Source of the DNA: Colwellia sp. RSH04 | GTDB taxonomy: Bacteria > Pseudomonadota > Gammaproteobacteria > Enterobacterales > Alteromonadaceae | Reading direction: 5' to 3' | NCBI RefSeq assembly: GCF_003545765.1 | Contig: NZ_QXIO01000001.1 | Coordinates: 558,001-622,000, forward strand | Length of the DNA: 64,000 nt | Shown here: positions 38,272 through 64,000 of the stretch, one piece after another | How the letters are laid out: each line of letters starts with the position of its first letter | Position numbering within the stretch: position 1 is the stretch's first letter | Notes under the pieces: model-generated | What the model saw: only the letters and a program-made list of their open reading frames with translations | Told to the model about the DNA's origin: nothing | Database searches by the model: none | Program-made: the position numbers and the translations under genes

Positions 38272-38282
38272 CGATTGTTTAG

Positions 38283-39862: not shown

Positions 39863-40137
39863 ATGATTAAAAAATCCAATGGTTTAACTAATTTTGCTTT
39901 TAGACCGTGCGACGATTCAACCGTCTCGCCTCGGGCAAAACGATAGGCAGATTCCACGCCTAAGTTATTACCAAAAGCCCCCGCATCCAGTGAAACATTT
40001 GTATGTACGTGAGTATCACCAAAAAATACAGCCTTAGGAAAGTCACTATCTGCATGTGGGGAATAGTTCTTTTGCACTGATGAATCAGCACTAAATGCAC
40101 TATTCGCTGGTATAAGTGCTGTGATAGCTGAGAACAA
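39863..40137 (-). pseudogene. Truncated DUF3604 protein (N-terminal remnant)
   Basis: About 90 residues of a DUF3604 protein: DFPKAVFFGDTHVHTNVSLDAGAFGNNLG is the typical metal-binding N-terminus (GDTHVHT), and PLDFLII is the last family sequence before the IS end at 39862. The remaining several hundred residues are absent from the window. The 5' end is also damaged. The frame has only a TTG at 40137, while AAGG-ATAAAAAATAAT upstream looks like a former ATG start in another frame. The gene belonged to the sulfatase/DUF1254 operon. Confidence 0.8.
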
Positions 40138-40353
40138 TATTATTTTTTATCCTTAAAAATTTAGGCCGTCAATAATATTTACAATAATCAACATTATTCT
40201 TCGCAAAGTACTCCTAAACTAGAAAAATATACTCATCAATAGATTTAACGTCGATGATAAATGATATAAAACGAATAACTCGACAGCTTTTTCTCAACAA
40301 CCTGCCAAGTTATTCGTCGCACTTTATTTTAAAAACAAAGCTACGCTATTTAT

Positions 40354-42797
40354 TTAGTCGATATATTTAATATCCACTTTTTCTATTTTCCCATTGAATT
40401 TAAACGGTGCGCGGTCAAGGTAATCCAGTGCAACTGGCGAAGCTAGGTCCATACCAATATCAAACGTTTCTGAAGCAGTAAATATTGCAGGAACTGAACG
40501 TTCTACACGTCCTTGCCCAACTTCTTTACCATTAACTTTCAACGTGATCGTTGCAGGCGCTAAACGCTCTTTCGCATCGTATTTTGTTTCTATTTCTATT
40601 TTAACTTTCCCTGTATCAATAGCTGACTTAGAGGTGATTTTGTATCGGTTCATTGTCATCGCATTGTATTCTGCTTTTAAGAAGCCTTTGTCCATGTAAA
40701 CAGTGAAGCCCGCTGAAATTCCACCTACAGCAAAGAGCACGCCTTCTGCACCTTTATCGATTTCAGCATCAATCACGGCAATAGTTGAACGTCCACTGAC
40801 AAACTTAGGTGCTAACCCCTCAGGAATACGTGTTTGACCTTGAAAAAACTCCCACTGCGTTAACGTTGACGTTGGCATTTGACTCGCATTATAAAACGCC
40901 GTATAAAGCCCAGCACCAATAGGAAGTACAAGATTGTCAGCCGCTTCTTTAGTAAATAGTGCTTTTAATTCAGCCAGTTTTTCAGGATTCTGTTTCGCGA
41001 GATCATTTGATTGTGAATAATCTTCTTCTAAGTTATAGAGTTCCCACACATCAGTCTCTGGTTGCCAATTGATAACGCCAGTGACATCTGTTGACCAAGG
41101 GGCTTTGGGACCAAATGTTCCTGCAAACCATCCCTCATGATAAACACCTCGACTGCCCATCACTTCAAAATACTGAGTAGTCTTCGTTGATTTAGCATCA
41201 GGTTTATCAAAGGTATAAGCCATTGATGTTCCGTCAAGCTGTTGCTGCTCTACTCCATTAACCACTTTAGGCGGTGTAATATCTAAAATATCATAGAGAG
41301 TTGCCGCTATATCATTCACATGATGAAATTGGTTACGCACTTTACCGTCATGTTTAATTTTGTCAGGCCATGAGATAACCAATGGCGTACGTGTTCCGCC
41401 TAAGTGAGCTGCAATAAGTTTGGTACTCTGAAACGGTGATGCTCCAGCATACGCCCAGCCGTGATGATACATCACATCGAGTGTTGGTCCACCCAATGCT
41501 TCTATACCACCATATTCGTTATTAAGCACATCAATCTGTTCTTCAATCGTTGTTGGCATCGCATTTTGTGATAGCAATTCAGATATAGACCCTTCCTGTC
41601 CTTCAGATGATGGACCATTGTCTGAGTTAATATAAATGATTAGGGTGTTTTCTAACTGCCCTTGACGCTCAATTTCATCAACAATTTTCCCGTACTGTAC
41701 ATCGGTATGCTCTAAGAATCCGGCATATATTTCCATTAATCGAGTTTGAAACTCATGCTGAGACTTTGGAATGTCTTCCCATTTTTGTTGGGTTTCAGCG
41801 ATAGGGTTAAGCGTGGCGTTCTGAGGGATCCAACCTAGTGCTTTTTGCTTCTCAAAGGTCATTGTTCTTAATGCTTCCCAACCTTGATCAAACTTTCCGT
41901 CATACTTGTCAGCCCATTCTTTAAAAACATGAAATGGCCCATGAACAGCGCCAGGAGCGAAGTAAACAAGGAAAGGTTTTTCAGGAGCCAGTGTTTTACT
42001 GGTTCTCATCCACTGAATCGCTTTTTCAGCTAAGTCTTCGGTCAGGTGATACGTAGGGTCGTGTGGTACTTGAATGGGGTTAGTATTTTCAAACAATACT
42101 GGTTCGTATTGCGAGGTCTCTCCAGCTAAAAATCCGTAATAGTAATCAAAACCCAATCCCGTTGGATAACGATCGAATGGACCTAATTTGGTAATATCGG
42201 TAACGGGTGTGTTGTGCCATTTACCAAAGGCAGAGGTATTGTATCCGTACTCATTCAGAACTGTCGCGAAAGTTGCGGTAGATTTGGGAATTTTGCCTAC
42301 ATAACCGTCCCAATCTGAAGCAAATTCAGCAATTTGTCCTGCGCCAACGCGATGATGGTTACGTCCAGTTAATAAAGATGCTCTGGTAGGTGAACACATT
42401 GCTGTGGTGTGAAAAGAGTTATAGGTAATACCTGTGTTGGCTAAACGATCCAATGTCGGCATATGAACTGGACCACCAAAGGTCTCAGGATTTGAAAATC
42501 CCGCATCATCCGTCATGAAGATGATTATATTTGGGGCATCTTTTGGCAGGTGCTTGGTATCGCTGCGCCATTGATGTTTTGAATCAGCAAGGGTATTACC
42601 AACAGTACTTGCTGACTTTGGCTCAGGGAACGGTAACGTTTGGCCAACTACATTACTGTGTATTGTTTGAGCTTCTTGTTGAGTTACTTTTTTGTAACTT
42701 GTTCAGTTTTTGGTGCTTTTGCAGGTTCACAAGCAGAAACTAAAACACTTATTAATGGTATGCCAATCAAGGTGCTAATATTCTTAAATTTTTTCAT
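40354..42797 (-). pseudogene. Arylsulfatase lipoprotein with N-terminal frameshift
   Basis: Sulfatase-family hydrolase. The catalytic signature CSPTR (in AMCSPTRASLLTGRN) carries the Cys that is converted to formylglycine, and TDDAG near the start binds the metal; total about 810 residues. The open frame covers only 42516-40354. The true N-terminus is at ATG 42797: MKKFKNISTLIGIPLISVLVSAC, a lipoprotein signal. It runs into a stop right after a six-A tract (42688-42693). One extra A would read KKVTQQEAQT... straight into FMTDDAGFSNP. The gene is therefore either recently inactivated, phase-variable by slippage, or mis-sequenced. It would hydrolyse sulfate esters and needs a formylglycine-generating maturase. 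Its C-terminal domain is duplicated in the fragment at 44933-45347. Confidence 0.85.
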
Positions 42798-42934
42798 TAG
42801 TATAATTCCATGTATTTAATATATTTGATTAATTTTTCTAAGCTTTAACTTTATGCTATTAACATTTTAACAAGAGATCGATATTTCAAACCTCTAACGC
42901 CTATCTAAACTTTTATTGTTCAGTGTTTGCGTTA

Positions 42935-43339
42935 CTAAAAACGATAGCGAACACCAATAGCAAGATCAGCACTCAACTTAACATCACTCCTTGAACCATG
43001 ATCAAAATCTAATTCAGGTTGAACTTGAAAGTAGCCATCCCATTTATCATCAAAGTTCAGGTTTATACCTAATGGAAGACGAATACCAGCGCCATGATCC
43101 CAACCAAGAAAAGCTCCTCCGGCTACATACCAATTAAAAGGAGTTTCTTCACTAAACGAGCCTCTTTTAAAAATGTAATCGCCAGAGATACCATCATTAC
43201 CGATAAAAGCGTTAATATTGTCAAACTGGGCAGTTACACCGAACCCTTGATCAAAACCAAGACCTACTTTTACTGCAGCACCGGCCGTATTTGATACAAA
43301 TAAACTAAATGTCATTATTAATAATATATATTTTTTCAT
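42935..43339 (-). CDS. Small outer-membrane beta-barrel protein
   Basis: 134 residues with a clear signal peptide (MKKYILLIMTFSLFVSNTAGA). The mature part has alternating hydrophobic strands rich in Gly and aromatics and ends in GVRYRF, the usual C-terminal Phe of barrels. The family is not recognised. It is encoded between the frameshifted sulfatase and a DUF1254 lipoprotein on the same strand. Role unknown; an eight-stranded barrel is plausible from the length. Confidence 0.65.
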   Translation of the reverse strand: MKKYILLIMTFSLFVSNTAGAAVKVGLGFDQGFGVTAQFDNINAFIGNDGISGDYIFKRGSFSEETPFNWYVAGGAFLGWDHGAGIRLPLGINLNFDDKWDGYFQVQPELDFDHGSRSDVKLSADLAIGVRYRF

Positions 43340-43382
43340 GTGTTTTATCTTCCAAATTATTGTTTATATTAATTGATCTATC

Positions 43383-44819
43383 TTATTGAACTTTAATTAT
43401 TTTCGGTGCCACCCATTCTCCTTGAAGTGCTTCTTGTGTAGGTCCATACAGTCTCATCACTGCGTAAAAAGGTCCATCTGGTGCTGGTAACCAGTTTGCT
43501 TCGAGCTCCTTACCCGGTGAATCTTTTTGAACGTAAATAGTTAATGAGCCGTCGTCATTAACAATGAACTGTTCCATCATGGTTGAATTTAACAAATACT
43601 TATTTAAAGGATTATCAATCAACAGCTGTGTTTTTCCGTCGTACATAGTGAGCGACCAGAAAGCGTTTACAGGAGGTAGCTCACCTTTTTTGAATGTTAA
43701 GGTGTATTCACTTTTAGATGCATCTAAAGGTTTACCTTCAGAGTCAACCAAATAGGTCGGATAAGTCGCTTCTGCACCTGAATTACCATAGATACCTAAT
43801 TGGGCGCCAGCTGCTCTCATGATATAAAAATCACTCAAGTTGTAGTTTTCTTTGGCACTATTCATTAAAAATGTTCGGGTCCCAAAAACCTTTGTACTCG
43901 ATAATGGATCTAACGATGCTTTTTGGCCAAACTCTTTTATAGCTAAAAGCCCTGCTTGCGCTCCTTCTTCTAAAGCTTTCTGAATTTCAGGACTAAATGT
44001 TGATAGATCAAACTTGCCCTCTCCACCCAAGCCTATTTTTGCAAATCGCTGAAGAAGCGGTTGTTCTACATCAGGAGTTTTCACTAACGTTAGCATAAAA
44101 TCTAAATATTTAAACGACTGTGCGGTAAACTCTGTGCCATTTTCCCACACAGGCGCATCAAGATTGCTAGCTAACGATGGAGCTTCAGCTCCTAAAAATG
44201 CACTTAACGGCTCTACTTCATAACCATCTTGAATTTCTTTAAGCTTGTCTATATCACTGGTATTGAAAAGTTGTGTGCGATGAATGGCAAAAATCAAGCT
44301 AGTTTCAAATGATATAACTTCGGTTATGCCTTCAGGTAGATCACCTTGCCAATTAGGCCCAGTTAACAAGTAATTGCCTGGAGGATTCTTTTCTACTGAA
44401 CTGATATAGTCGGCATTATGGGTATATAAATCTATCAATTGAACACTATAGTAACGCTCTTCTTCAATTTCAGGAATGGTGAAAACGACGGGTTCAGCTC
44501 TTAAGTCGACCCAAGTCATACAATAAGGCGTATCAGAGTTCGGTGTAATAATAGCCCTATCCTCTGGCGTGTATACACGAGCTTCACACATTAATTGATT
44601 AAAATCACCTTTGTACTCAACGGCTTTTTTATTCAGTGCGTATTCATACATTGTTTTATAGTTAAGTACTAAAGGGAAGCCATAAACATAGGCGTCTTTA
44701 GCTATCTGTTTGGCTTCTTGTGGGGTTAGGGTTGCCTGTTTAGGGGCGTAAGCGTTTTCATTTGAGCAGCCTGATACTGCTATCAAACCTGCTAACACTA
44801 TTACACTTAATTTTTTCAT
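43383..44819 (-). CDS. DUF1254/DUF1214 lipoprotein
   Basis: 478 residues. Lipoprotein signal (MKKLSVIVLAGLIAVSGCSNE, lipid Cys about 18). DUF1254 domain at about 50-190 (VYGFPLVLNYKTMYEYALN; ITPNSDTPYCMTWVDLRAEPVVFTIP; YYSVQLIDLYTHN). DUF1214 domain at about 370-478 (PPVNAFWSLTMYDGKTQLLIDNPLNKY; WLPAPDGPFYAVMRLYGP). Function unknown; such proteins are envelope-located and often occur with sulfatases and DUF3604 proteins in marine bacteria. Good AAGGAG ribosome-binding site. One of three paralogues in this cluster. Confidence 0.9.
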   Translation of the reverse strand: MKKLSVIVLAGLIAVSGCSNENAYAPKQATLTPQEAKQIAKDAYVYGFPLVLNYKTMYEYALNKKAVEYKGDFNQLMCEARVYTPEDRAIITPNSDTPYCMTWVDLRAEPVVFTIPEIEEERYYSVQLIDLYTHNADYISSVEKNPPGNYLLTGPNWQGDLPEGITEVISFETSLIFAIHRTQLFNTSDIDKLKEIQDGYEVEPLSAFLGAEAPSLASNLDAPVWENGTEFTAQSFKYLDFMLTLVKTPDVEQPLLQRFAKIGLGGEGKFDLSTFSPEIQKALEEGAQAGLLAIKEFGQKASLDPLSSTKVFGTRTFLMNSAKENYNLSDFYIMRAAGAQLGIYGNSGAEATYPTYLVDSEGKPLDASKSEYTLTFKKGELPPVNAFWSLTMYDGKTQLLIDNPLNKYLLNSTMMEQFIVNDDGSLTIYVQKDSPGKELEANWLPAPDGPFYAVMRLYGPTQEALQGEWVAPKIIKVQ

Positions 44820-44932
44820 TATATCTCCTTTTACTGTTCAATAAAGTTGTTTTCGATAAACCTCGACAAGTGGCTAAAAATGTCATTGTCAGCCACTTAG
44901 TCAACCGTTTATCTGGTGTTTATAAGCCACGG

Positions 44933-45347
44933 CTAATCAATATACTTAATATGTACCTTTTCGATTTTTCCGCTAAATTCAAAGGGGACTCTATCCCAGT
45001 AATCCAGTGAAACCGGTGAGTTTAAATCCATACCTATATCAAAAGTTTCAGACGCAGTGAAGATTGAAGGCACCGATCGTTCTACCCGTCCCTGACCAAC
45101 TTCTTTACCATTTGCTTTTAAAGTAATGGTCGCAGGTGCCATACGTTCCTTGGCATCATATTTTGTGACTATTTCTATTTTTACCTTACCGGTTGGAATG
45201 GCTGATTTAGAGCTAATCTTATAACGATTCAAGGTCATGGCATTATATTCAGCTTTAAAGAAGCCTTTATCCCTTTGAATTACAAGCAACAAATACTAGA
45301 ACTGATAACCCTTTAGCAGTAATTGTACCTATTGCTTGTTTCAGCAT
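44933..45347 (-). pseudogene. Internally deleted second sulfatase
   Basis: The last 110 residues are nearly identical to the C-terminus of the sulfatase at 40354 (DKGFFKAEYNAMT..., TASETFDIGMDL, KIEKVHIKYID). Directly upstream, a lipoprotein signal with a good AAAAGGAAAG site starts at ATG 45347 (MLKQAIGTITAKGLSVLVFVAC) and runs out of frame at the join (about 45265-45272). The gene therefore kept its first 25 codons and its C-terminal domain and lost the whole catalytic middle, roughly 2 kb, in one deletion. Confidence 0.85.
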
Positions 45348-45356
45348 ACTTTCCTT

Positions 45357-46796
45357 TTATTTATGCACAGCTGGTGGAACCCAACGACCATTCAGTGCCT
45401 GAGGTTTGGGAGCATAAAGTCTCATAGTAACGCCAAGCTCCCCTTTGTCTGGAGAGGGTAGCCAATTAGATTCTTTATCTTTACCTGGTGATTTTGCCTG
45501 GATGTATATATCCAGTGAACCATCCTTGTTGTAAACGAGCTCATCTCGGTCTCCAATAGCAAAGCGGTTAAGTTCGTTGGCAACTTGAAAGCCTTCGTGG
45601 TCGTACATTGTAATCGACCAGAATGCATCTACCGGTGGAATTTCATCTTTCTTAAAGTGTATTTTATAGTTGTTTGTTCCTACCAACTTTTCCCCGTCTG
45701 CATCAGCTAAAAGAAGAGGGTAAATTCCATCTTCTGGCGGGATAGCCCCCAGACCAACTAGCGTTACAATGGCTCTCTTCATGTATTCATTACCGTATAC
45801 ACCCATTGTGGAGGTATTCATCTGCCAACCATTAGCAATATTTGCCATTGAAGGTAGAGTTTCTTTCATCAATTGCAACCCATCAGTGATAGAGTTCTCA
45901 AGAGCTGCTTTAACGACAGGAGATGCGTTGTCGTAATCAAAACTCTTTCCCGCTTCGATGCCGATACGCTTCATTCTGGCAAGAATGGAGAAGTCTGTAG
46001 AGTGCGGTGAGTATTTTTTCATTAACTCAGCACCGTAATTAAAGTAGTTTTTGGCGTCCATAGCCATCATTTGATCAAATGGAGTTGTTTTCATATCGAC
46101 AGTTGGATCAACTTTGAATGCTTTAGGTGCTACTTTTTTACCCCATTGGGAAAGAGGCGTGATTTTGAACCCTTCTTGAAGACCATTCACAAATGAATAA
46201 TCTTTTGGACCATTTGTTTGAATACGATTGATGATCCACATCATGGAAGTAGGTGCTTCGATAGCCTCGATGCCCTTAGGTAATTTTCCTTTGAAGCCTT
46301 TAGGTACTAGAGCAATATTTTTTGCTTTTGTACCCGAGGTTCTTTTTCCAGCCGCTACAAACACATCTGTCCACATATCCATGATAGGCAGTATATAATG
46401 ACGACCTTGGGTATCCGGCATTGAGATAATCATAGACTCTTTAGAAATATCAACCCATGCACCGGAGTAAAGCGTATCAAAGTTTGGACGAACGACCTCA
46501 CGATATTCCGCTTCAGGGAATGCTCTATTGTGATCAAATTGGTTTATTCTACCCTCTGGTGTATTTGTAAGGCTGCGGCGGGTAATATCCATTGTAAGCA
46601 AGGGGTGTAAATAAACATAAGCTTCTATGGCGATTTTGTTTGCTTCTTCTTGGTTGATCTCTGCAGCAGGTTGTGCAACTTCTGTTGCAACTTTAGCATT
46701 GACAGTTACTTTTTGAGTAGTTGTTTTATGTTCTTCTCCGCACCCTGATAAAATGACCATCAAAGTGGTTAATACCATTAAATATAATTTTTTCAT
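45357..46796 (-). CDS. DUF1254/DUF1214 lipoprotein
   Basis: About 479 residues from the ATG at 46796, which starts a proper lipoprotein signal (MKKLYLMVLTTLMVILSGCGEE); the frame extends nine codons further. DUF1254 features: AYVYLHPLLTMDITRRSLTN, VRPNFDTLYSGAWVDISKESMIISMPDTQGRHYILPIMDMWTDV. DUF1214 features: PPVDAFWSITMYDHEGFQVANELNRFAIGDRD and NWLPSPDKGELGVTMRLYAP. It ends 9 bp before the remnant sulfatase gene, in the same operon. Function unknown. Confidence 0.9.
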   Translation of the reverse strand: MKKLYLMVLTTLMVILSGCGEEHKTTTQKVTVNAKVATEVAQPAAEINQEEANKIAIEAYVYLHPLLTMDITRRSLTNTPEGRINQFDHNRAFPEAEYREVVRPNFDTLYSGAWVDISKESMIISMPDTQGRHYILPIMDMWTDVFVAAGKRTSGTKAKNIALVPKGFKGKLPKGIEAIEAPTSMMWIINRIQTNGPKDYSFVNGLQEGFKITPLSQWGKKVAPKAFKVDPTVDMKTTPFDQMMAMDAKNYFNYGAELMKKYSPHSTDFSILARMKRIGIEAGKSFDYDNASPVVKAALENSITDGLQLMKETLPSMANIANGWQMNTSTMGVYGNEYMKRAIVTLVGLGAIPPEDGIYPLLLADADGEKLVGTNNYKIHFKKDEIPPVDAFWSITMYDHEGFQVANELNRFAIGDRDELVYNKDGSLDIYIQAKSPGKDKESNWLPSPDKGELGVTMRLYAPKPQALNGRWVPPAVHK

Positions 46797-46986
46797 TTGA
46801 TTGTTATCTTGTTTTAACAACAAAATTTTCCTTTTTTGTTAATTTGTATCATTTATTTAACTCTCGTTATCTTCTGTTATGCCCATAAAAGGTAAAGGCT
46901 TTCTGATTTTCACTTGTAGAATCTGGCTTATCGAGAAAACCTTCCATCGTGTATTCCGACAATTAATCTATAACAAAAAATGGGCT

Positions 46987-48045
46987 TTATTTTACCTTGA
47001 TTGGTGTTGGCAGCTTGAATGAATCTAATTGGTCGAGTTTAGGTTCATAGACACGCATGATAAAGTTCCAACCTTTAGTAATAGGTAGGTTATTCTTAGC
47101 ATCTTTACCACATTCACCAAAGTTAACATCAAAGCTGCCGTCTTTATTAAAGCTGATATTGTTTTTGTTCAAAATGGCCCTTTTATCAAACATCCAGCCC
47201 TCAGAGTCATACATAGTAAGTGAGAAAAACCCAGGCTCATTAAATGGTGGTACTTTATAATTTGCCTTATAACAGCCTTTGCCATCACTACCTTCAGGCA
47301 CGTACCCGATGTATCTAGCATTAGTATCAGGTAGTAACCCCCACCCTACAGCTGTACCTAGTAAGTGCAAATGGTCATCAACAGTACCACGATTTCCTTG
47401 CATATTATTAAGCGAACCTAAGGCTAAAGCTTCATTTGCAAGCTTAACTCTCAGCTTCTCCAATTGCTCCATGTCATAATGAGGTTGTTTAAAGACTTTA
47501 TCGCCTTTAACGTCTAGCTTGATTTTTTCTTGTAAGGCTACGACTTTCTTTATGTCCTCGGGATCATTCATGTTAATCTCGGTGCGAATACTGACACTCA
47601 CAAAATCACTATCTGTATCACTTTTTAGCTCGTACGTACCAGCGCCAATAAACACATCATTAACATAATGATCGTTTTGTGTGATCTGTGCTGACATGTA
47701 TCGGCCATCTGTTTCAGGCAAAGTGATCGTTGCACCTTTTGATACATCGACAATAGCACCACTATAAACAGTATCTTGATTCATCCGGACAACTACTTGT
47801 TTGTTCAAATCAAATTCTTTTACAGGTAGGTGGATTAACTTATTTGCCCCACCTAGTTTAACGGTACCACCAAAAGCAAAATCTGATTCTGCTACTTTAT
47901 AGTTTTGAAGTGTTACAGGGGTTTTATCCGTTGTATTAGCCACAGAAGATTCCTTTTCTACTGAAGCGCAACCATAGGTAAGTATACTACTAGCGATTAA
48001 TCCACTTATGATAGTTAAGTTTTTTCTCTTATTCTGAGTATTCAT
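46987..48045 (-). CDS. Short DUF1254/DUF1214 lipoprotein
   Basis: 352 residues. The lipoprotein signal ends in LTYGCAS. It carries a compact DUF1254 part (VVVRMNQDTVYSGAIVDVSKGATITLPETDGRYMSAQITQNDHYVNDV) and a C-terminal DUF1214 part (PPFNEPGFFSLTMYDSEGWMFDKRAILN; WNFIMRVYEP). It is shorter than its two paralogues because the N-terminal segment before the domain and the mid-region are reduced. AAGGATTT ribosome-binding site. Function unknown. Confidence 0.85.
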   Translation of the reverse strand: MNTQNKRKNLTIISGLIASSILTYGCASVEKESSVANTTDKTPVTLQNYKVAESDFAFGGTVKLGGANKLIHLPVKEFDLNKQVVVRMNQDTVYSGAIVDVSKGATITLPETDGRYMSAQITQNDHYVNDVFIGAGTYELKSDTDSDFVSVSIRTEINMNDPEDIKKVVALQEKIKLDVKGDKVFKQPHYDMEQLEKLRVKLANEALALGSLNNMQGNRGTVDDHLHLLGTAVGWGLLPDTNARYIGYVPEGSDGKGCYKANYKVPPFNEPGFFSLTMYDSEGWMFDKRAILNKNNISFNKDGSFDVNFGECGKDAKNNLPITKGWNFIMRVYEPKLDQLDSFKLPTPIKVK

Positions 48046-48135
48046 ATCTAAATCCTTATTTTCTTATTTTTACAATCGTTTTTTACTAATATTATGTTTA
48101 TTGACCTTCTCTTTATTACTGTCTTGGCTCAAGCA

Positions 48136-48927
48136 TCAAAATTGGTAATTGTATTCTATACGTTGGTCACCATCGCTAAAGTCAGTGTGTTGTGACCAGT
48201 TAGCAAAATAACGAATATTTGAGCGAGGGTTTATTTGATATGACACAATAAATTCATGCATAAGTACACTGCTGTGATTTTCAAAACCGTGATCTTTAAA
48301 AAGAGTAGAGCCTGATAAAGAGGTATTCCAAATTGGATTATAGTTCAACCATATTTGGTCTGTAACAGTGAATTTACCATACAAGCCAACTGTGGCAAAT
48401 GTTCCAGGAAATGAATAACCACTGGCTATCGAACCATCATCTTGAAGTGTATTATTAGCCACAGCAACACCGATACCCGCAAGTGGGTATAAATTAAATC
48501 GTCCCATTTGGGGAAGAGCTTGAAGTAAGCTATAACTTAACGTGCCTGATTCACTATTAAAATCATAGCTTAGATCTATTTGTGCACCAAGTCCCGTGTT
48601 TGGATTAACAGTAAGATTACGTACTCTAATCGAATCAATAGAATTATTGGCATTATCTTCCCATCCTAAGGTATCTCCATAAATACCTTTAAGCTCAAAA
48701 AGATTCATGCCAAGTTTGTCATCAACTCCTGTGTCATAGCTTTTTGCAACTTTGAGATTAATGCCTTTATTGGTGATACCAGCACCTGCCATGGTAAATA
48801 CGGCAAGTGGATCGGACATATCGGCTAATCCATCCTCTGAAGTAGTTGCATCTTCAGCAATCGCTGATGCACTTATAAGTAGTGTTAATGAAGCGATTTT
48901 AGTGACTAAGCTTGTTGTTCTATTCAT
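48136..48927 (-). CDS. Outer-membrane barrel-like exported protein
   Basis: 263 residues with a signal peptide (1-24, ending AIA). The remainder is a series of amphipathic beta strands with Gly/Asn turns ending in RIEYNYQF, which fits an outer-membrane barrel. The family is not recognised with certainty. It lies in the same-strand run with DUF1254 lipoproteins and other barrels, about 90 bp before the short DUF1254 gene. Confidence 0.7.
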   Translation of the reverse strand: MNRTTSLVTKIASLTLLISASAIAEDATTSEDGLADMSDPLAVFTMAGAGITNKGINLKVAKSYDTGVDDKLGMNLFELKGIYGDTLGWEDNANNSIDSIRVRNLTVNPNTGLGAQIDLSYDFNSESGTLSYSLLQALPQMGRFNLYPLAGIGVAVANNTLQDDGSIASGYSFPGTFATVGLYGKFTVTDQIWLNYNPIWNTSLSGSTLFKDHGFENHSSVLMHEFIVSYQINPRSNIRYFANWSQHTDFSDGDQRIEYNYQF

Positions 48928-55626: not shown

Positions 55627-55880
55627 CATGAGTCAAAAAGTAGTACTTTGAGATAGCATTAATATTTTTCACTCACTCTAAGATGCAATAAGTTATCCGA
55701 AAATTCTATGGCGCAATGTGCCCCATTGCGAGTTAGAAACAGAATATAAACGTTGGATTATTTTACATCAAAACTTTACAGGTATATTTACTTCTTAACG
55801 ATTTGTTTTATGTTTTATCTTTGTAACAAATAACGCGTAAACCAAATGGTCGTTTTGTTTACGTACTTTGGACTTGTGGC
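55627..55880. other. Intergenic junction between envelope cluster and island
   Basis: There is no gene between the convergent AraC gene and the unassigned operon. Two features stand out. At 55769-55788, CAAAACTTTACAGGTATATT matches 63733-63752 beside ssb at 17 of 20 bases in the same orientation. At 55837-55862, GTAAAC...GTTTAC is a hairpin with similar inner bases. Either could mark the end of the recombinase-bearing island. Confidence 0.45.
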
Positions 55881-56942
55881 TTAATGTTCATAAGTCGCAG
55901 TAACGCTTCTTATGCGTTGAGAAATTTTTGGGTTAGAAAAAATAAAACCTATCGCCAAGTTTACCAATGATTTTAAAGGAATACTGTAATGACCGATTTT
56001 CCCTTGGTCTGGATGCAAGTCAAAACACTTTAAGTATTCGCGAACCTTTGTTTCTACGTCATACGCAAAATTATCACATGCTCTGGTCTCTAAGCAAATA
56101 ACTATGCCGATATCTTTTGGACCGAAACGGTTCGAGTTATCAGCAGATCCAATTTTTGATCTTTCCTTTGATAACTTCATATAAAAATATGGCGATGTTC
56201 TTTTCACAGCTGGGATAGATTTGGCATAATCAATATCTACATTAGTCATCGATGAGTCTATCCAAGGCTTGGGCTTACTACTAACTTTCTTCATTGTTGA
56301 AAATTTGCGAATCTCTTCATTTATATAATCGTGCAACTTGTGTCTTGGTAGACATGACAGTTCGGGCTTTTCAATTAGAGTTGTTAAAAAGTTAAATATT
56401 CTTTTTAATTGCACAGGCTTTGAATGAGATATAGGGAATGCTAACGCCAACTGTCGCTCAATTAAAAAATTTACTAGATCAAGACTAGGCCAATAACGCT
56501 TATCTCCAACCGACACCCCTTTACTATGCCAAATTTCATAACATTCACGCACCATTTGATCAATAGCACCATTTCTTATCAGCATTTGAAAGCAAGAAAT
56601 TGCGCCATACTTTTCGGGTTCCAGAACCCATTTTCCATTTACTTGGGATAAACAACAGCCAGAAGAGATGACTTCAACAATATTTAAATACTCAGCAATA
56701 TCTCTAATAAGATCGCAGCCATTTCTTTTATAAACACTTAAATTACTGGGAGTTATTTGAACACGGGTAATAGAGAATATTAGCTTACATACAATAATTG
56801 ATGATATGGAATTTAACTGAATCCCCTCTTTTTTTGAGTGTTTTAAGATATTACCTAAGTACTTAACTACTCCTTGATAATCACACGGCTGGAGACCTAA
56901 CGTAACAGCAATAATTTCAAGCTTCGATGGGACTGTTTTCAT
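55881..56942 (-). CDS. Unassigned protein C of the three-gene island cassette
   Basis: 353 residues, soluble, no signal peptide. I do not recognise a family. It is largely helical in its first 220 residues (KLEIIAVTLGLQPCDYQGVVKYLGNI; YWPSLDLVNFLIERQLALAF), has a polar linker with two SK/PKP stretches (about 215-240), and a mixed C-terminal domain containing GPKDIGIVICLETRACDNFAYDVETKV. Its ATG overlaps the stop of gene B by four bases (ATGA). This is the last gene of a tightly coupled operon downstream of the recombinase module, so it is probably a subunit acting with genes A and B; a defence or cargo function is conjecture. Confidence 0.8.
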   Translation of the reverse strand: MKTVPSKLEIIAVTLGLQPCDYQGVVKYLGNILKHSKKEGIQLNSISSIIVCKLIFSITRVQITPSNLSVYKRNGCDLIRDIAEYLNIVEVISSGCCLSQVNGKWVLEPEKYGAISCFQMLIRNGAIDQMVRECYEIWHSKGVSVGDKRYWPSLDLVNFLIERQLALAFPISHSKPVQLKRIFNFLTTLIEKPELSCLPRHKLHDYINEEIRKFSTMKKVSSKPKPWIDSSMTNVDIDYAKSIPAVKRTSPYFYMKLSKERSKIGSADNSNRFGPKDIGIVICLETRACDNFAYDVETKVREYLKCFDLHPDQGKIGHYSIPLKSLVNLAIGFIFSNPKISQRIRSVTATYEH

Positions 56943-57445
56943 TGCACTGTCCTACCTGTTATAGCCATAGAGAGGTCGATGTTACCTAGTATAAACTCAT
57001 ACACCTCAGGACATATATGCTCAGGTACAGCAATTCTATCGACAATTTCATGGGCAATTAGCATTATTTCTTTGAATTCTCGCGAAGATTGAAAATCTGC
57101 GACCATCTCTCTAGCTATTTTGTCGAAATGCAAATTTATAGCTACTTCTATAGCTTCCAGCATATATATTTGGGAGAGCTCAAAGGAACTTATTGGCCAT
57201 TTTTTTGAATGATAAGGAAACAAAGACGAAGCAAACCTCATCATACTGATTGGGCATGATAAATTAGCGAAAAAACAAAGAATTTGTTGAGATTGCAGCG
57301 ATGGTTTAGTTAGCATTATTCCACTGAATTGCGATGCGTCTAACATACATCGCGTACCATCCGACGCTTCCATTTTCTCTTGAAAAGTTGACTCGCACTC
57401 ATTATGTAACTGCTCATTTAGCGATGATAAGTCGAGATAAATCAT
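56939..57445 (-). CDS. Unassigned protein B of the three-gene island cassette
   Basis: 168 residues, soluble, mostly helical, with several Met and Cys residues (CFFANLSCPISMMRFASSLFPYHSKKW). No recognised family. The sequence MLEAIEVAINLHFDKIAREMVADFQSSREFKEIMLIAHEIVDRIAVPEHICPEVYEFILG looks like a compact helical bundle. The start ATG overlaps the stop of gene A by one base (TAATG) and its own stop overlaps gene C by four, so A, B and C are translated as a unit in fixed order. This suggests a complex. Confidence 0.78.
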   Translation of the reverse strand: MIYLDLSSLNEQLHNECESTFQEKMEASDGTRCMLDASQFSGIMLTKPSLQSQQILCFFANLSCPISMMRFASSLFPYHSKKWPISSFELSQIYMLEAIEVAINLHFDKIAREMVADFQSSREFKEIMLIAHEIVDRIAVPEHICPEVYEFILGNIDLSMAITGRTVQ

Positions 57446-57978
57446 TATAAATCACCATTGAAACGCGCTTTTATTTTAATGGGTGAATTAATTCTAATAG
57501 AGCCGCTGATTCTAAGACACAATACCGACTGTCGAAGAAGTATAATTGAAGAAAAAACTAGGCACTCATCATTATCCACTTTGAGTTCGGCTTCACCTGT
57601 TTTAGGGTTTGTTATTTTTACGTACTTACTAAGATCGAGCCGTCCTAGTATTTCATCATTAAAACAATCGATAAGTACTAGCTCTATCTGATAGTTTTGA
57701 CCTACCGAAATAAAAGCCTCGATTATTTCGATTAAACATTCGCGCGGACCGTGCAGCAACGGTGTATCAGACGAAAACTGTTTGAGTTGCGTGGTAAGCT
57801 TTGAAAAATGAAAATAACTATCTTTTTCCGCAAGCTCGACAATGTCTGAATGATCGAGCCCAGCAGTATAAATTTTATTGAAATAAGACAAATAGAATCT
57901 TTGAAATACTTCGAAGATATTAACATATGTATTTTCAGACGATTCTATCGCATCAATATATAAAAAACGATTTGCCAT
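57445..57978 (-). CDS. Unassigned protein A of the three-gene island cassette
   Basis: 177 residues from the ATG at 57978 (MANRFLYIDAIESSENTYVNIFEVF); the open frame goes 22 codons further but with hydrophobic, unlikely sequence. No known family. The first half is helical; the second half alternates short strands (YQIELVLIDCFNDEILGRLDL, TGEAELKVDNDECLVFSSIILL, SIRINSPIKIKARF), suggesting a small beta domain. First gene of the cassette, separated by about 230 bp from the GmtX-like gene, so it may have its own promoter. Role unknown. Confidence 0.75.
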   Translation of the reverse strand: MANRFLYIDAIESSENTYVNIFEVFQRFYLSYFNKIYTAGLDHSDIVELAEKDSYFHFSKLTTQLKQFSSDTPLLHGPRECLIEIIEAFISVGQNYQIELVLIDCFNDEILGRLDLSKYVKITNPKTGEAELKVDNDECLVFSSIILLRQSVLCLRISGSIRINSPIKIKARFNGDL

Positions 57979-58207: not shown

Positions 58208-58606
58208 TCAACTTCTGGAAATTGGTTCAGATAACTGCTCAATAGTAATTTCATGCTTATTAGCATTGTATAACCAAACTTGAAACTGCTCCAACAAAGC
58301 TTGGTTCTCACTTTTTAATCTAGCAATTTCACGTTCTTTTTTTTCTAACCTATCCGCAGCAATTTTCAAGCTCGGTGGTACACTTTTCTTCTTATTGGAT
58401 AGATTTCCAGACAACAATTTTTTAACTTCATCAAAAGCCTTTTTTATCCTGACTTGCTTTTGTAGCGTTTGGCGGGTTGTGCTATATCTATACTCACTAG
58501 CGACAGCATCAACAAGTCTATCCCAGCTTAATTTAGATTCCGTTGGCCAAGAGTCTAAAATCTCAACAATATTATTAATATCATTATCAGTTAAATGTCG
58601 AGCCAT
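58208..58606 (-). CDS. gmtX: GmtX-like small coiled-coil protein of recombinase module
   Basis: 132 residues. The N-terminal half is a helix-turn-helix-like region (LTDNDINNIVEILDSWPTE..., TTRQTLQKQVRIKKAFDEVKKLL); the C-terminal half is a coiled coil (LEKKEREIARLKSENQALLEQFQ). It is the fourth gene of a recombinase operon, 14 bp after the large integrase. By position, size and N-terminal pattern I match it to GmtX of Gamma-Mobile-Trio islands, and by analogy to TnpC of Tn554, an accessory DNA-binding protein. The name is from memory of published descriptions, not a search. Confidence 0.68.
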   Translation of the reverse strand: MARHLTDNDINNIVEILDSWPTESKLSWDRLVDAVASEYRYSTTRQTLQKQVRIKKAFDEVKKLLSGNLSNKKKSVPPSLKIAADRLEKKEREIARLKSENQALLEQFQVWLYNANKHEITIEQLSEPISRS

Positions 58607-58620
58607 TAGTATTTCACCTT

Positions 58621-60831
58621 TTATAAGTCATCGAAATCATCAAGTTCTTCTAATACGCTTAGTGATTCTTCATTAATTTTTTTTCCAATAAGCTCATCTA
58701 CATTGCTAGCTTTAATGCGCTTATAATTAATAATATCCGGTAATCTTTTTTTGCCATTGGCATCCATAGCCCTATCTAACTGTGTAACATCCTCAACATT
58801 AGATAACTTAATTAATGCGCCTTTTTCAATGTTAGGATCTTCCATCATTTTTAATATCTGGGCACACCTTTCAGTTGTAATTTTTCTACGTTGATACCAC
58901 TGCTCAGCCCCAGGAACATTATTATCTACTGCTTGTTTGTCTTGCTTTAATAGCTTGAGTTCTTTAGCTAAGCGATCTCTGATCCGATCACACTTCCCGT
59001 CATCACCTTTAACGCAGACTTGCTCATTGCAGTTTATGCAATCCCTGTATTTTGTACATGGTTCACTCAAGTATGATGTTATACACATGCCAAATTCTGT
59101 TGTATGAGCTGTTAATGATGCTTTTGTATTTAGCTCTTGAATTGATCGGGGATTAGCTACCTGGACTATAATTTGGTTCTTTGCTGATGAATCAGAAATA
59201 GCGAGTTCCTTTTCTCTCTCTTCTATAAAGTCAGCACCATATTCTTCGTAGGTTGTGTGGTTATAATATTGATTGTGTCGGGGGTCTGAACGTTGAGCCC
59301 ACTTTGCTCTTGTTTTATTCTCCATGCCATTAACCGCAGCCATAGTATCAAGCATATGACGTAGTTGATGAGATGTAAGTGATAACTCTTTATACCCCCA
59401 ACGTTGAAAAATAGAAAGGTTTCCTGACGCTAACTCGCCTGTCGATCTATTCCTTTTTTTTGTCGGTGACAGGTCTTCATTTAAGGTATTTATTGTAGGG
59501 ATAGATAATTGTGTAAAGATTGTAGCTTTCTTCACATCCAGATTGTTTTTAAAACCTGCATATAACGAATCAGACCATTTAACCCGAACCCTTCCTTCTC
59601 CATTTTTAAAAGGGATATAAGGGAAGCCTTCTGGCAAGTTAGCTCTGACAATGTTGTTTAAGTCATTCAAACTTACTTGATAATCTTTTCTTTCAATTCC
59701 ATTGAGTTTTAATAATTGATTTCGCCCCGTATTCTTTTGTTGCTTAGTTTTATATACAGAAATATCAAGACCTAGCGATAGTGCAACTTCATCCATTGTC
59801 AAAAGTTCATCACACTCAACTTTAGGGCATAATCTATGGCGAGGAAAATCAGTTGAATCTTCTAACATTTTAGCAAAGTTTCTTGCTTCCCTGGACTGCT
59901 TTTTTAATCGTTCAATTGCAACTTTAACAGTCTCAACCATAACCGTTGGCAGCCATTTATTCTCATATCCATAACTTTTTCCTGAATACCACTTAAGCCC
60001 TGTTAACGTTATTTCATCTTCAAAAGTTATAGGTGTATCACCTTTTCTATTACCGAGCAGCACCTCTACGTCTTCTTTACCTAATCCCATATTCATTGCT
60101 TTATTTGCTTTCATTTTTTCATAATGTAAACAATCAACTTTTAAGTACAAAGGCTCTGAGCCACGTGCAGGAGCGCTCAACATTAAAGCCATTGTAGATA
60201 CTGTAAAAATATCTCTTGGGGACATCTCTACTGATTTTGAGCTACTTATCTGTGCTAATGCTTGAATTGCATTTTCGTCGGGCATTTTCTCTTGTCGACG
60301 TTTATCCGCTTCATCACCTACGGCAACATCTCTTGGTTTTTTATTAGGGTTTTTCCAATTAAACCCCGTTATCATTTTTTTATTTTCTAAAAATAATAAT
60401 AACTTTTTAAGACCTGAGCCTGCCTGATATGCTGCACCTTGCCCAATGGATTCACGCGCTATTTGTGCGGCTAGGTCAAAATCTCGACTTGATAAGTTTA
60501 CCACCTCAACAATGCCATATTGCTGCATACAAGCAGCATTAATCGCTTTTAGAGCATAAAACTTAGCTGTTGTTCCTGCTTTGCTAGATTTTTCATATGT
60601 AATATATGCTTTGGCAAAAGGGAGTAATGACTCATTTAAGAGGTTTTCAGGGTTTCTGTCTTGATTTGAAACACCGAAATTAGTGAAATTCCCTACGCCT
60701 GGCCAATAGTTACTTTCATAGTCATATTTATCATTTAACGGTTCTAATTCTTTGCAAAAAGTCATGAACTCCTTAAGGTTTTTTCTATGTTCTAATTCAT
60801 GCTTAGGTGTAAAAATAACAACACTAGTCAT
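58621..60831 (-). CDS. gmtZ: Large tyrosine recombinase, probable GmtZ
   Basis: 736 residues. A phage-integrase-type domain lies in the middle (about 190-560): Arg I in LSAPARGSEPLYLKVDC, the HxLRH motif in LTSHQLRHMLDTMAA, and the region WAQRSDPRHNQYYNHTTY holding the likely nucleophilic Tyr. It is followed by a cysteine cluster (CITSYLSEPCTKYRDCINCNEQVC...C, about 605-640) typical of zinc-binding tails in multi-recombinase transposons, and a charged C-terminus. The start overlaps the preceding integrase gene by eight bases. It is probably the GmtZ component of a Gamma-Mobile-Trio system; the neighbouring 520-residue integrase is the alternative. Confidence 0.72.
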   Translation of the reverse strand: MTSVVIFTPKHELEHRKNLKEFMTFCKELEPLNDKYDYESNYWPGVGNFTNFGVSNQDRNPENLLNESLLPFAKAYITYEKSSKAGTTAKFYALKAINAACMQQYGIVEVVNLSSRDFDLAAQIARESIGQGAAYQAGSGLKKLLLFLENKKMITGFNWKNPNKKPRDVAVGDEADKRRQEKMPDENAIQALAQISSSKSVEMSPRDIFTVSTMALMLSAPARGSEPLYLKVDCLHYEKMKANKAMNMGLGKEDVEVLLGNRKGDTPITFEDEITLTGLKWYSGKSYGYENKWLPTVMVETVKVAIERLKKQSREARNFAKMLEDSTDFPRHRLCPKVECDELLTMDEVALSLGLDISVYKTKQQKNTGRNQLLKLNGIERKDYQVSLNDLNNIVRANLPEGFPYIPFKNGEGRVRVKWSDSLYAGFKNNLDVKKATIFTQLSIPTINTLNEDLSPTKKRNRSTGELASGNLSIFQRWGYKELSLTSHQLRHMLDTMAAVNGMENKTRAKWAQRSDPRHNQYYNHTTYEEYGADFIEEREKELAISDSSAKNQIIVQVANPRSIQELNTKASLTAHTTEFGMCITSYLSEPCTKYRDCINCNEQVCVKGDDGKCDRIRDRLAKELKLLKQDKQAVDNNVPGAEQWYQRRKITTERCAQILKMMEDPNIEKGALIKLSNVEDVTQLDRAMDANGKKRLPDIINYKRIKASNVDELIGKKINEESLSVLEELDDFDDL

Positions 60832-62383
60832 TTAAGTACTCCTCGCAAAGTTTGATCACTTGGCAAACAGCAATGATGGCTCGATCATTTATTACAACTA
60901 TTTGCATATCACTATCAGTATCCGATTTTAAACGCTCTCTTTCATCCATTAACCACTGTAAAACCAAGTAATGGGGCGCATGTACCCATGGTCGATATTT
61001 ATCACAAAGATAACAAGCTATTGGAGCGTAATCCTGACAGAATGAATTGGTTCCACATGAGCCTACTTCACAGTTTTTTTCTCTTAATGCAATGCGTGTA
61101 GCGCCAGGGTTTTCTTTATTTGCCTCGTTTTCGTTTTCTACCAGTTTTCCCTCAAAAGCTGCTGCATATCGTGCGAGCGGTTGATTCATAATTTTAGAGA
61201 TCTCTACTGCATGCTCTGGCACATTCGCAACATATACTGACGTATTTTGCATAGTAGAATGATCTAACAATGTTGCGATTGTTATCTCTCCTGCACCTTC
61301 CCTAGCAGCCCGTGTACCCAAGGTGTAACGAAACCGGTAAGGATTAACATGAATAAATTTACCTGTTCTTTCAGATACAACTTCTAGTTTCTGAACAGCA
61401 CTTATTAACTGCCTTCTTAAATCCACATTTACCATGTGGGGCAATTCTGACTTTAAAAAATCAAAAAACTCATCCTTTGAATTAAAATAACTCTGACAAT
61501 AGCCTCCATTCAGGAACAATGGCAGCTCACCATACTCTTGTGTAGTTAGTTTTCGGTTAATTGCTTTTTCGACAATTTTTTTAGACTCTTCAATGTGCAA
61601 CTCTATAACCTGCGCGACAGCCTTTATCAAACCAAACGGTTTGAATGAAGTACGAAATTTCTCATTTCGTTGTTTTGCCCTGGGAATATTAACAATATAA
61701 GTAGGGGTGCTGGTATATGTACTGGTATACATAAAGTCTTTGACTTTAAGTGATGATATTTGCTCTGTTCGTCTTCCTGTTGCCTTGTAAATTAAAATAG
61801 TGGCGTAATCTTTTGTCGATAATTTACCTCTAGCGTACAGTTGAGCTGCTTTATGACCTATGCCTTCAAACTCAGTATCACTAAATGGACCGGTTTCAGG
61901 ATCAAGCGATAAAACCGCTGCTCCTTTTTCATTTCCTGATAAGCGCCATCTATCGGTCAATTCATAAACTTCGTCACTTATATGATCATTTAACCCCAAG
62001 TAACGCATTTGCCTGATAAAACCACGCACAACAGAAAGCTTATATTCTTGCTTTTTAAGTAAACTATTTTTAAAGTTGATGAAACCCTGTTCGGAAAACA
62101 CATCGACTTTTGATGTCCTCAAATATAACTTTAAATTATCGGATATATTACGAACATGTGTAGCAGAGTTACTTTCAGCAAAATAAGTTAACGTTTCTCG
62201 AATGTCATTTGCAAGTGAGTTTTCAAATGTATCAATGAAGGCAGCATTAACGGTGATATTTCTGTTTAATTTCCAATCATCACTCAAATAATCAAATTCA
62301 AAACCATTATAAGAAACGGTAACAGTTATCCTACTCTGTTGATTTGTTTCTGAGTCGCTAGTATCAGTAGTTAACGTCTTCAT
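60824..62383 (-). CDS. Tyrosine recombinase, middle gene of the module
   Basis: 519 residues from the second ATG (62383), six bases after GGAGG; an ATG one codon earlier is too close to that site. The catalytic region (about 170-400) has Arg I in YKATGRRTEQISSLKV, NPYRFRYTLGTRAA where the usual His of HxxR is Tyr, and LLDHSTMQNTSVYVANV with the second His and nucleophilic Tyr. A C-terminal Cys cluster (SCGTNSFCQDYAPIACYLC) and the ending are like those of Tn554-type recombinases. It overlaps both neighbours. It is not part of the minimal three-protein GMT set as I remember it, so it may be an extra integrase. Confidence 0.85.
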   Translation of the reverse strand: MKTLTTDTSDSETNQQSRITVTVSYNGFEFDYLSDDWKLNRNITVNAAFIDTFENSLANDIRETLTYFAESNSATHVRNISDNLKLYLRTSKVDVFSEQGFINFKNSLLKKQEYKLSVVRGFIRQMRYLGLNDHISDEVYELTDRWRLSGNEKGAAVLSLDPETGPFSDTEFEGIGHKAAQLYARGKLSTKDYATILIYKATGRRTEQISSLKVKDFMYTSTYTSTPTYIVNIPRAKQRNEKFRTSFKPFGLIKAVAQVIELHIEESKKIVEKAINRKLTTQEYGELPLFLNGGYCQSYFNSKDEFFDFLKSELPHMVNVDLRRQLISAVQKLEVVSERTGKFIHVNPYRFRYTLGTRAAREGAGEITIATLLDHSTMQNTSVYVANVPEHAVEISKIMNQPLARYAAAFEGKLVENENEANKENPGATRIALREKNCEVGSCGTNSFCQDYAPIACYLCDKYRPWVHAPHYLVLQWLMDERERLKSDTDSDMQIVVINDRAIIAVCQVIKLCEEYLND

Positions 62384-63662
62384 CATGAGCCTCCGTAGCT
62401 TTGTTTATTTTTGCACTTCCTTTTTCTTGTAGCTCTAACCCGACCTCAAAGGCTCTTCTTCTTTCGTATCTCTGGCTGTACCACTTGGCCATTTCCGACG
62501 TTTCACTCCAACCCATTAATTTCTGTCGATCACTTTCCGCTTTGTTATGTGTAGTTCGACCTTCTGCAATTTTTCTATCTGCATACTCGCTATATTTATC
62601 ATTCCATGAATGTCTTAAAGCATGAGCGTGTACGTTAAAGTTTACCGATTGGGATATTTCTCTCATGATTTTATCAACAGAGGATATCGACAAGCCATTT
62701 TTCTTTAAGCTATATCCATGCGGTACAAATAAATAAGGTACTTTCTCCACACCTTTTACGTTACTTCGATGATAAATAACAAAATCATCAAACATGTCGC
62801 TTAGCCTTTTATCCATAGGTATGTTTCGACCTAATGTTTTCGCTTCTGGCCTGTCAGCACGATTGTCTTCAAGATCCGTTTCTGACCGAACGGTAACATA
62901 ACGTCTTCCATTTCTAGGATGTGTTTTTACATCATCTATTCGAATTTTTAGAAGCTCACCTCTCCTTATACCAAGTGCTTCATACATATGAATAATCAGA
63001 TGATTACGATATTGAATAGACTCACGCTTCCATGGGTTTCGGGGTGAATCAGGCCTAACTATATCTAAAACTACCGACATTTCTGCGGAAGAAAGCGATT
63101 TATATTTCTCTTCATCGTAGGTGTCTTTTTTACGCCCTATCTTCCTTGAACGATGTGATTTAAATAGTATTTCGGTTTCTGATTCTTTAGACGGGAATAA
63201 CGTTTTATCTAACCAAGAGACATATTGGGAAAAAGTCGTGATCCTATTGTAAGTAGTATCAATATCGCACCATCCATCTTTATCGACAACGATAGATACC
63301 CTAGCGGCTTCAAGGTTACTTTTTTTAGTAATTTTTACTACTTTCGTTTGCTTAAGCTTTTCTCTTTTTTCCCTAAAAGAGTCAACCTTATAACTAGCCC
63401 AATGTACAATTTCTGAAACTTCTGCTTTTGTTAAGAACTCACCTCGAAGAGAGCGGTGGACCAAGTCTATTTCTAAAAAGTTACAAATTTCATATAAATA
63501 TTTAAGGCGATCGAATACCGCTTTGCAGGTGTTACTTGCTTCTGATGTTTTAAAGTAGTGCTCCGTCACGAACAAATTAGGATAAGGCATCGGCATTCCA
63601 GTATTATCAACTAATACTGCATACTTAAAGCCACTGCTCATTTGAATTTTTCTTACTTTCAT
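62364..63662 (-). CDS. gmtY: Tyrosine recombinase, probable GmtY
   Basis: 432 residues from the ATG at 63662, which has AGGG nine bases upstream (a TTG one codon earlier is not needed). N-terminal core-binding region (about 1-190), catalytic domain from about 200: EALGIRRGELLKIRIDDV (Arg I), VHAHALRHSWND (HxLRH), and MGWSETSEMAKWYSQRYERR with the Tyr nucleophile. The complete R-H-R-Y set is visible. First gene of the overlapping recombinase operon and adjacent to ssb. It matches my recollection of GmtY, the tyrosine recombinase that leads Gamma-Mobile-Trio islands. Confidence 0.75.
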   Translation of the reverse strand: MKVRKIQMSSGFKYAVLVDNTGMPMPYPNLFVTEHYFKTSEASNTCKAVFDRLKYLYEICNFLEIDLVHRSLRGEFLTKAEVSEIVHWASYKVDSFREKREKLKQTKVVKITKKSNLEAARVSIVVDKDGWCDIDTTYNRITTFSQYVSWLDKTLFPSKESETEILFKSHRSRKIGRKKDTYDEEKYKSLSSAEMSVVLDIVRPDSPRNPWKRESIQYRNHLIIHMYEALGIRRGELLKIRIDDVKTHPRNGRRYVTVRSETDLEDNRADRPEAKTLGRNIPMDKRLSDMFDDFVIYHRSNVKGVEKVPYLFVPHGYSLKKNGLSISSVDKIMREISQSVNFNVHAHALRHSWNDKYSEYADRKIAEGRTTHNKAESDRQKLMGWSETSEMAKWYSQRYERRRAFEVGLELQEKGSAKINKATEAHDEDVNY

Positions 63663-63724
63663 CAAACACCCTAAAACTTAACAAAAACTATAGGTACATG
63701 ATAACCATAAATTTAAGTATAAAA

Positions 63725-63827: not shown

Positions 63828-64000
63828 TCAGAACGGAATATCATCATCAAAATCAATTGATGGCTCTTGCGGGTTTACTTTAGGTGCTTGTTGCGGCTGT
63901 TGTGGGGCAAAACCACCTTGCTGCTGACCTTGGTTAAATCCACCGCCTTGCTGTGGCTTGTTATAACTTTGCTGAGGTGCTGCTTGTTGCTGGCCTTGAT
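63828..64000 (-). CDS. ssb: Single-stranded DNA-binding protein, C-terminal part
   Basis: The 3' end of ssb, cut by the window edge. The minus strand encodes a Gln/Gly/Pro-rich linker (QGQQQ..., YNKPQQGGGF) and ends in SIDFDDDIPF, the acidic tip through which SSB recruits replication and repair proteins. The OB-fold is outside the window. It probably represents the chromosomal flank of the island. Confidence 0.96.
   Translation of the reverse strand, partial: QGQQQAAPQQSYNKPQQGGGFNQGQQQGGFAPQQPQQAPKVNPQEPSIDFDDDIPF

Follow-up and report, generated by a model that had tools for sequence, protein, structure and literature searches.

What does a compact operon of three genes without family assignment do directly behind a set of recombinase genes? 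The operon, whose genes we call A, B and C, lies in a stretch of 64,000 nucleotides from Colwellia sp. RSH04 (contig NZ_QXIO01000001.1, positions 558,001 to 622,000; hereafter the window), where an original prediction made from the sequence had proposed a multi-subunit cargo system, possibly for defence. Our analysis points, with a probability of roughly 0.45, to A-B-C being a mobile, nuclease-centred anti-invader (defence) cassette that is carried as cargo by integrative tyrosine-recombinase elements. We favour this reading because the operon appears to have changed vehicles, because its first gene seems to have been exchanged, and because of the genes that are found near it.

A three-gene operon without family assignment

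All three genes are on the minus strand, where A (177 residues, 57445–57978) overlaps B (168 residues, 56939–57445) by 1 nucleotide (nt) and B overlaps C (353 residues, 55881–56942) by 4 nt, exactly as they had been described in the original prediction. A is the variable first gene of the operon and has an alternative ATG further upstream at 58044, from which it would encode 199 residues; B is a partner that is kept with C, and C is a predicted DNA-binding, nuclease-like protein. The statement that none of the three belongs to a recognisable family also held when they were compared with Pfam, NCBIfam, PADLOC and PHROGs, where the best match has an E-value (E) of 0.02 or worse. A reaches E 0.023 in PADLOC and 0.083 in PHROGs, C reaches E 0.034 in PADLOC and 0.092 in Pfam, and B returns no match in any of the four; a sequence search of the PDB gives nothing for C and chance-level matches for A and B (E 0.56 or worse). 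The proteins had all been called cytoplasmic, which stands for B and C, whose highest 19-residue Kyte-Doolittle means (1.34 and 1.56) lie under the usual mark of 1.6, and does not quite stand for A, which slightly exceeds it (1.78, at residue 139). A scan for promoters and terminators gave counts near chance, namely 16 and 3 where shuffled sequences gave 14.2 and 1.7. Between C and an AraC-type regulator there is a short dispersed repeat (55699–55741), with matches of about 30–40 base pairs at 85–94% identity in at least 7 of 39 genomes of the genus.

B and C stay together while the first gene changes

With C alone as the query, the only one of 394 genomes of the order to contain it was that of the window, and an initial scan of genome contigs by pattern gave no C match. 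A second copy, on a plasmid of Shewanella putrefaciens (L003, CP078040), made profiles possible; a second pattern scan yielded a Rheinheimera contig (L004), and a profile search placed C in 7 of 395 genomes of the family (G000, G1030, G1042, G814, G853, G979 in two places, and G872 as a weak remnant), with G1030 and L004, whose contigs share a length of 50468, counted as one locus. Draws from the class (1 of 369 genomes) and the phylum (1 of 398) returned the window itself, and a search of the order with profile A6 returned the window and a match of 18.6 bits in G231 (2 of 335), which contains a stop and was dismissed. The eight C loci are the window, L003, L004, L065, L066, L067, L068 and L069, and beyond these L070 holds a decayed stretch of C. 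Since so few genomes have C (1 of 394 in the order and, with the weak remnant, 7 of 395 in the family), a housekeeping locus shared with relatives, which the original prediction had named as the finding that would speak against it, is ruled out. A phage origin was likewise rejected, as neither C nor its L069 form has a match in phages, and a pattern scan of viral contigs found neither C nor B. Searches with the Shewanella C, with A, and with the L069 and L068 forms gave no further plasmid copies, and the B of L004 matched only the Shewanella plasmid. In the open-licence PMC literature we recognised no description of the operon, which leaves publication elsewhere possible.

B lies directly before C in all six loci that retain upstream sequence (the window, L003, L004 in part, L065, L066 and L067), contig ends having cut off this region in L068 and L069. 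The tight spacing also recurs, with 1 and 4 nt in L066, 4 and 1 nt in L067, and 4 nt between B and C in L004. Relative to the window, A, B and C are 36, 48 and 40% identical in L066 (genome G814) and 32, 31 and 28% identical in L067, and because order and spacing recur at 28–48% identity in these two loci, we take the arrangement to be more than chance. The proposed survey of whether A, B and C travel together thus finds B and C joined in every locus where this can be seen, beside recombinases. Homologues of A are present at L066:10976–11515 (about 36–37% identity) and L067:8984–9529 (32%). Its position in L065 and L003 is occupied by another first gene, A', which is 38% identical between the two. 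Next to a constant B and C, the first gene thus exists as two versions between which no similarity was detected; hhalign does not support treating A and A' as one family (P 0.27, from only 3 and 2 sequences).

Protein C as a putative DNA-binding nuclease

An AlphaFold2 (AF2) model of C built from 7 sequences has a mean predicted local distance difference test score (pLDDT) of 86.6 and a predicted template modelling score (pTM) of 0.58. Residues ~44–108 (56619–56813, minus strand) are modelled as three helices (48–59, 65–73 and 78–86) followed by a beta hairpin (strands 97–101 and 104–108), an arrangement that appears to resemble a winged helix-turn-helix (HTH). The middle region is helical, and residues 252–350 fold into three strands, then helices and one final strand, within a C-terminal domain (residues ~240–353; 55884–56225, minus strand) that is similar to T5orf172 and MUG113, two families placed in the GIY-YIG superfamily. 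Of the 17 columns that are invariant over six full-length C proteins, 9 lie past residue 250 (P251, Y254, K263, G265, R272, E297, L304, P311 and L326).

An ordered Tyr..(Y/K)-I-G..Arg..Glu pattern, the Y-KIG-R-E residues of which we take to have catalytic roles, is present in all eight C homologues and in 2 of 5 T5orf172/MUG113 open reading frames (ORFs) used as controls; among 432 unrelated ORFs it occurs in 2. A shorter version is present in 8 of 8, 4 of 5 and 0 of 432, respectively, the pattern having been written after the alignment was seen. In hhalign the C-terminal domain and whole C compare with T5orf172/MUG113 at P 0.0026 and 0.0087, and B as a control at P 0.18, and a Foldseek search of a viral library places MUG113 at rank 4 (probability 0.72) and T5orf172 at ranks 19 and 26 (probabilities 0.80 and 0.75), all of these matches to C being below significance. 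We consider it likely that C is a nuclease of the GIY-YIG type.

Two other matches to C were set aside: the chain of the Slx1–Slx4 entry 7cq2 (Z 3.6), which aligns with residues 4–94 and not with the GIY-YIG-like domain, and a single PHROGs match of the C domains to endonuclease VII at E 0.22. The AF2 model of B is helical and of low confidence (pLDDT 54), and was left unused.

Recombinase modules of several kinds carry the operon

The four-gene recombinase module that had been noticed upstream of ABC is indeed there, on the same strand, and consists of three tyrosine recombinases and a small gene. R1 (433 residues, 62364–63665, minus strand) matches Pfam Phage_integrase over the cut-off (35.7 bits, cut-off 27.1), and R2 (520 residues, 60824–62386, minus strand) matches the NCBIfam site-specific integrase model NF041502 (578 bits, cut-off 350). 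The recombinase-like R3 (736 residues, 58621–60831, minus strand) matches Phage_integrase weakly (E 0.0098), and the small gene (132 residues, 58208–58606, minus strand), which is TnpC-like by position, has a weak match to DUF6262 (13.9 bits, below the cut-off of 29). The original prediction had also referred to Gamma-Mobile-Trio islands, and we rejected membership of the module in these on the NCBIfam GmtY model (NF040693), against which R1 scores 16.6 bits (E 0.0036) where the cut-off is 340. The GmtY model is absent from the NCBIfam matches of R2, R3 and the small gene, and no GmtX or GmtZ model is among the NCBIfam matches of the module to E 1, the presence of these two models in NCBIfam being unchecked.

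Across the loci, recombinase-like genes are found within 6.5 kilobases (kb) of C in seven of eight cases, and in the eighth, L069, the contig starts inside C. These genes form four groups that are mutually without blastp similarity (E 0.01). The first group, ssb-type, includes the window, L067 and, in pieces, L003, and the others are those of G814, of Rheinheimera and G979 (weakly alike), and of G1042, which has a single recombinase. Each gene of the window's module has its counterpart in those of G771, G770 and G853 (blastp, E 0.01), and the genes on the Shewanella plasmid, compared in their broken state, match R1, R2 and R3 of the window in pieces. In G814 a 407-residue protein reaches E 0.0016 against Phage_integrase, below the cut-off, and module proteins of 758 and 926 residues have no Pfam match at E 0.01; the Rheinheimera proteins of 698 and 844 residues reach E 0.002 and 0.073 against Phage_integrase.

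The similarities of ABC and of the recombinases disagree, which rules out that the operon is bound to one recombinase type. The recombinases of L067 match those of the window, yet its ABC is only 28–32% identical, and G814 has the ABC closest to that of the window together with recombinase genes that have no blastp match to the window's. This combination in G814 makes it probable, as judged from sequence comparison, that the operon has passed from one vehicle to another. Near the A'BC of G1042 (L065:5141–9305) there is a short HD/dGTPase-like ORF of 116 residues, which may have been truncated and may be where that element inserted.

Defence-type genes near the operon in other genomes

Defence-type genes were found in five of the six scanned loci, the window being the exception, with neighbours picked by eye and without a base rate. 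L003 carries pieces of Shango (SngA, SngB and SngC) behind C, and in L004 a TrlF-family ATPase in two split ORFs, related to the anti-phage protein Ppl, adjoins C. L067 contains a Ppl-like protein together with the R and S subunits of type I restriction, L065 contains AbiH and a CARF6/ORC-CDC6-like/phosphoesterase set, and L068 contains AbiD and PD-Lambda-2_B, so that the operon does lie near defence genes at loci other than the window. In the window, two genes beyond C have no defence match in Pfam or NCBIfam. L065 and L003 each have a WYL protein next to A'BC; the two share 43% identity, and they are 34 and 31% identical, respectively, to a WYL protein in G770 that, read by eye, precedes a type I restriction system.

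Similar-looking three-gene sets, compared by eye, occur at L070:2245–7276 and L065:11483–15463 (324/327, 594/595 and 410/427 residues); they are close to a C gene in L065 and to the decayed C remnant in L070, and those of L065 are CARF6, ORC-CDC6-like and phosphoesterase-like. The recombinase-ABC-Shango stretch of L003 (3964–22743 in CP078040) is frameshifted in many genes, through decay or sequencing error, and is followed downstream by two resistance genes, QnrVC1 and dfrA15.

The 3' end of ssb as an insertion site

Homology to same-genus genomes picks up again at window position 63830, the 3' end of ssb, where the last ssb codons (CCGTTCTGA, 63828–63836, minus strand) form the right end of the island. 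Its probable left end is a second ssb-end motif (CCGTTCTAG, 37667–37675, minus strand), and past window position 28000 the ssb end CCGTTCT[AG][AG] occurs only at 63836 and 37675. We take the island to span about 37.7–63.8 kb. The sequence directly after ssb varies among same-genus genomes. In G762 and G765 the match to the window through 37.3 kb stops 3.1 and 4.9 kb from ssb, and in G759, G792 and G773 the main match nearest ssb already stops at about 29.1 kb. An ssb-downstream, terminator-like stretch (37564–37644, minus strand) is 97.5% identical to the sequence directly after ssb in G770, and because in that genome it sits between ssb and its own R1, insertions at the ssb site may have been nested or successive. 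Read by eye, window 37939–48927 contains sulfatase-like and repeated lipoprotein-like genes and a transposase-like fragment, and the island is therefore a mixed one.

We searched 39 genomes of the genus for ssb loci and kept the best 30, with flanks of up to 1.5 kb. An R1-like gene adjoins ssb in 5 of these 30, namely the window's own locus (L016) and those of G771 (L018), G788 (L030), G770 (L042) and G791 (L043), and L067, which comes from another genus of the family, has a module at ssb as well. Related recombinase modules thus insert at the 3' end of ssb, and the cargo that they bring varies. As named by eye, this cargo is a resolvase and a RecD-like gene in G771, whereas in G770 a RecD-like gene is joined by a WYL regulator and a type I restriction system. 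A RecD-like helicase stands behind the small gene in the ssb-type modules of L049, L055, L067 and L003, and in G770, G771 and G853 an extra gene of about 145 residues precedes it; the helicase may be an ancillary part of the ssb-type element.

Proposed working and alternative explanations

As a defence cassette, ABC would work through C, which would bind DNA with its winged-HTH-like N-terminus and would cut it with its T5orf172/GIY-YIG-like C-terminal domain. B would be the fixed partner of C, and A, as the exchangeable first gene, would set when or on what C acts, either as a sensor or as an inhibitor. In this scheme we infer that C is active as a nuclease, that the proteins form a complex, what A and B do, and that the outcome is defence. 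A broader proposal, which we think unlikely, is that B-C is a vehicle-independent module, made of a new DNA-binding GIY-YIG-like nuclease with an exchangeable control gene A/A', which travels on several tyrosine-recombinase element types and both defends the host and excludes rivals from shared sites such as the 3' end of ssb.

A number of results weigh against the defence reading. No PADLOC 2.0 profile takes in A, B or C, and PADLOC finds no defence gene in the recombinase module of the window. The defence scan covered only L003, L004, L065, L067, L068 and, in the window, the recombinase module with two genes beyond C, and its neighbours were chosen without a base-rate control. There are few loci, and a single family accounts for most of them (7 of 395 genomes, with one weak match, and 1 of 398 in the phylum). 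A recombinase-like gene is near C in all seven loci in which this can be judged, a count for which no expectation was computed and which suits a helper of mobility too. The nuclease part of the reading also meets with adverse results. T5orf172 is matched by the C domain of one in six members, at E 0.084 and short of the curated Pfam cut-off, and the hhalign comparison of this domain with five T5orf172/MUG113 domains (probability 11.6%, P 0.0026) is below significance. The named Foldseek matches in the viral library lie at E 0.17–0.5, none reaching 0.001, and its top three rows are uncharacterised proteins. A fold search of the PDB gave a best Foldseek E of 0.6 and a best VIA Z of 4.1, with no GIY-YIG fold over the C-terminal domain among the matches listed. 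Furthermore, when 445 ORFs were scanned with hmmsearch and hhalign, T5orf172 proteins did not stand out from the rest; the five T5orf172/MUG113 proteins took ranks 1, 128, 271, 408 and 424 among 437 non-member ORFs, and the alignment at rank 1 falls outside the domain of that protein.

The constant presence of recombinases favours the alternative that ABC is a mobility helper, in which C nicks or cuts DNA and so aids excision, integration or target capture, as in Tsy elements. In these the recombinases are followed downstream by a gene for a GIY-YIG nuclease, according to PMC10293859, and ABC directly follows the recombinase genes in both the window and L066. The operon is, however, optional, as the family profile search did not find C in G770, G771 or G788 despite their related modules at ssb. 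It also occurs with recombinase groups that are mutually without blastp similarity, and in L003 and L067 a RecD-like gene, joined in L003 by a WYL gene, stands between ABC and the recombinases. We regard a helper role as possible, and as less probable than defence cargo.

The element might also keep ABC for its own rivalry or maintenance, using it either to destroy competitors for the same site or as a toxin-antitoxin system, with C as the toxin and A/B as the antitoxin, that stabilises the element. The change from A to A' with B and C staying is compatible with swapped inhibitors, and several related modules use the ssb site in the genus. On the other side, A, B and C match no toxin or antitoxin family, and toxin-antitoxin pairs rarely have three fixed genes or a multidomain protein of 353 residues, and we judge this explanation to be quite unlikely. 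Lastly, ABC could be ordinary cargo that takes no part in conflict, C being for instance a regulator that binds DNA and whose T5orf172-like domain has degenerated, which would agree with the weak family matches and with the C of L067, where the YIG-like motif is KFG and the GK.DHY stretch is altered. The invariance of Y254, K263, G265, R272 and E297, and the share of invariant columns that falls in the C-terminal domain, argue against such degeneration, and we hold ordinary cargo to be the least probable of these explanations.

Relation to known systems

C shares with T5orf172 and MUG113 (PF10544, PF13455) a beta hairpin, the K-I-G, an Arg and a helix Glu, and some of its structural matches in the viral library bear these names; it differs from them in falling under every family cut-off, in its long DNA-binding-like N-terminus, and in its place in a three-gene operon. 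The recombinase module can be likened by architecture to Tn554-type modules, which consist of TnpA, TnpB and TnpC: adjacent tyrosine recombinases are followed by a short gene, here with the weak DUF6262 match. It differs in having three recombinases rather than two, and in its location at ssb. Gamma-Mobile-Trio islands, reportedly the subject of work by Mahata et al. in 2024, are similar in joining recombinase-type genes with defence cargo in Gammaproteobacteria, whereas the window's module does not match the GmtY model (R1 being below the cut-off, and R2, R3 and the small gene not being listed). PMC12715929 and PMC12259885 mention Gamma-Mobile-Trio by name.

Tsy transposons, as PMC10293859 describes them, contain a tyrosine recombinase (YRec), an HTH protein, TnsF and a GIY-YIG nuclease, the removal of which impaired but did not abolish transposition. 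Like them, the window has several tyrosine recombinases and a small gene in one operon, a resemblance of architecture only, as well as site-specific insertion at a conserved gene and an optional, putative GIY-YIG-type nuclease gene nearby. In contrast, its module sits at the 3' end of ssb and not at comM, C comes with A and B, and the cassette spans recombinase groups without blastp similarity. Other tyrosine-integrase islands with phage-defence genes sit at transfer-messenger RNA, according to PMC12595487.

A rare but recurring operon without family assignment, ABC is a concrete and testable candidate. Recombinase platforms of several distinct kinds accompany it, defence genes are repeatedly nearby, and the 3' end of ssb in this genus is a place to look for further systems.

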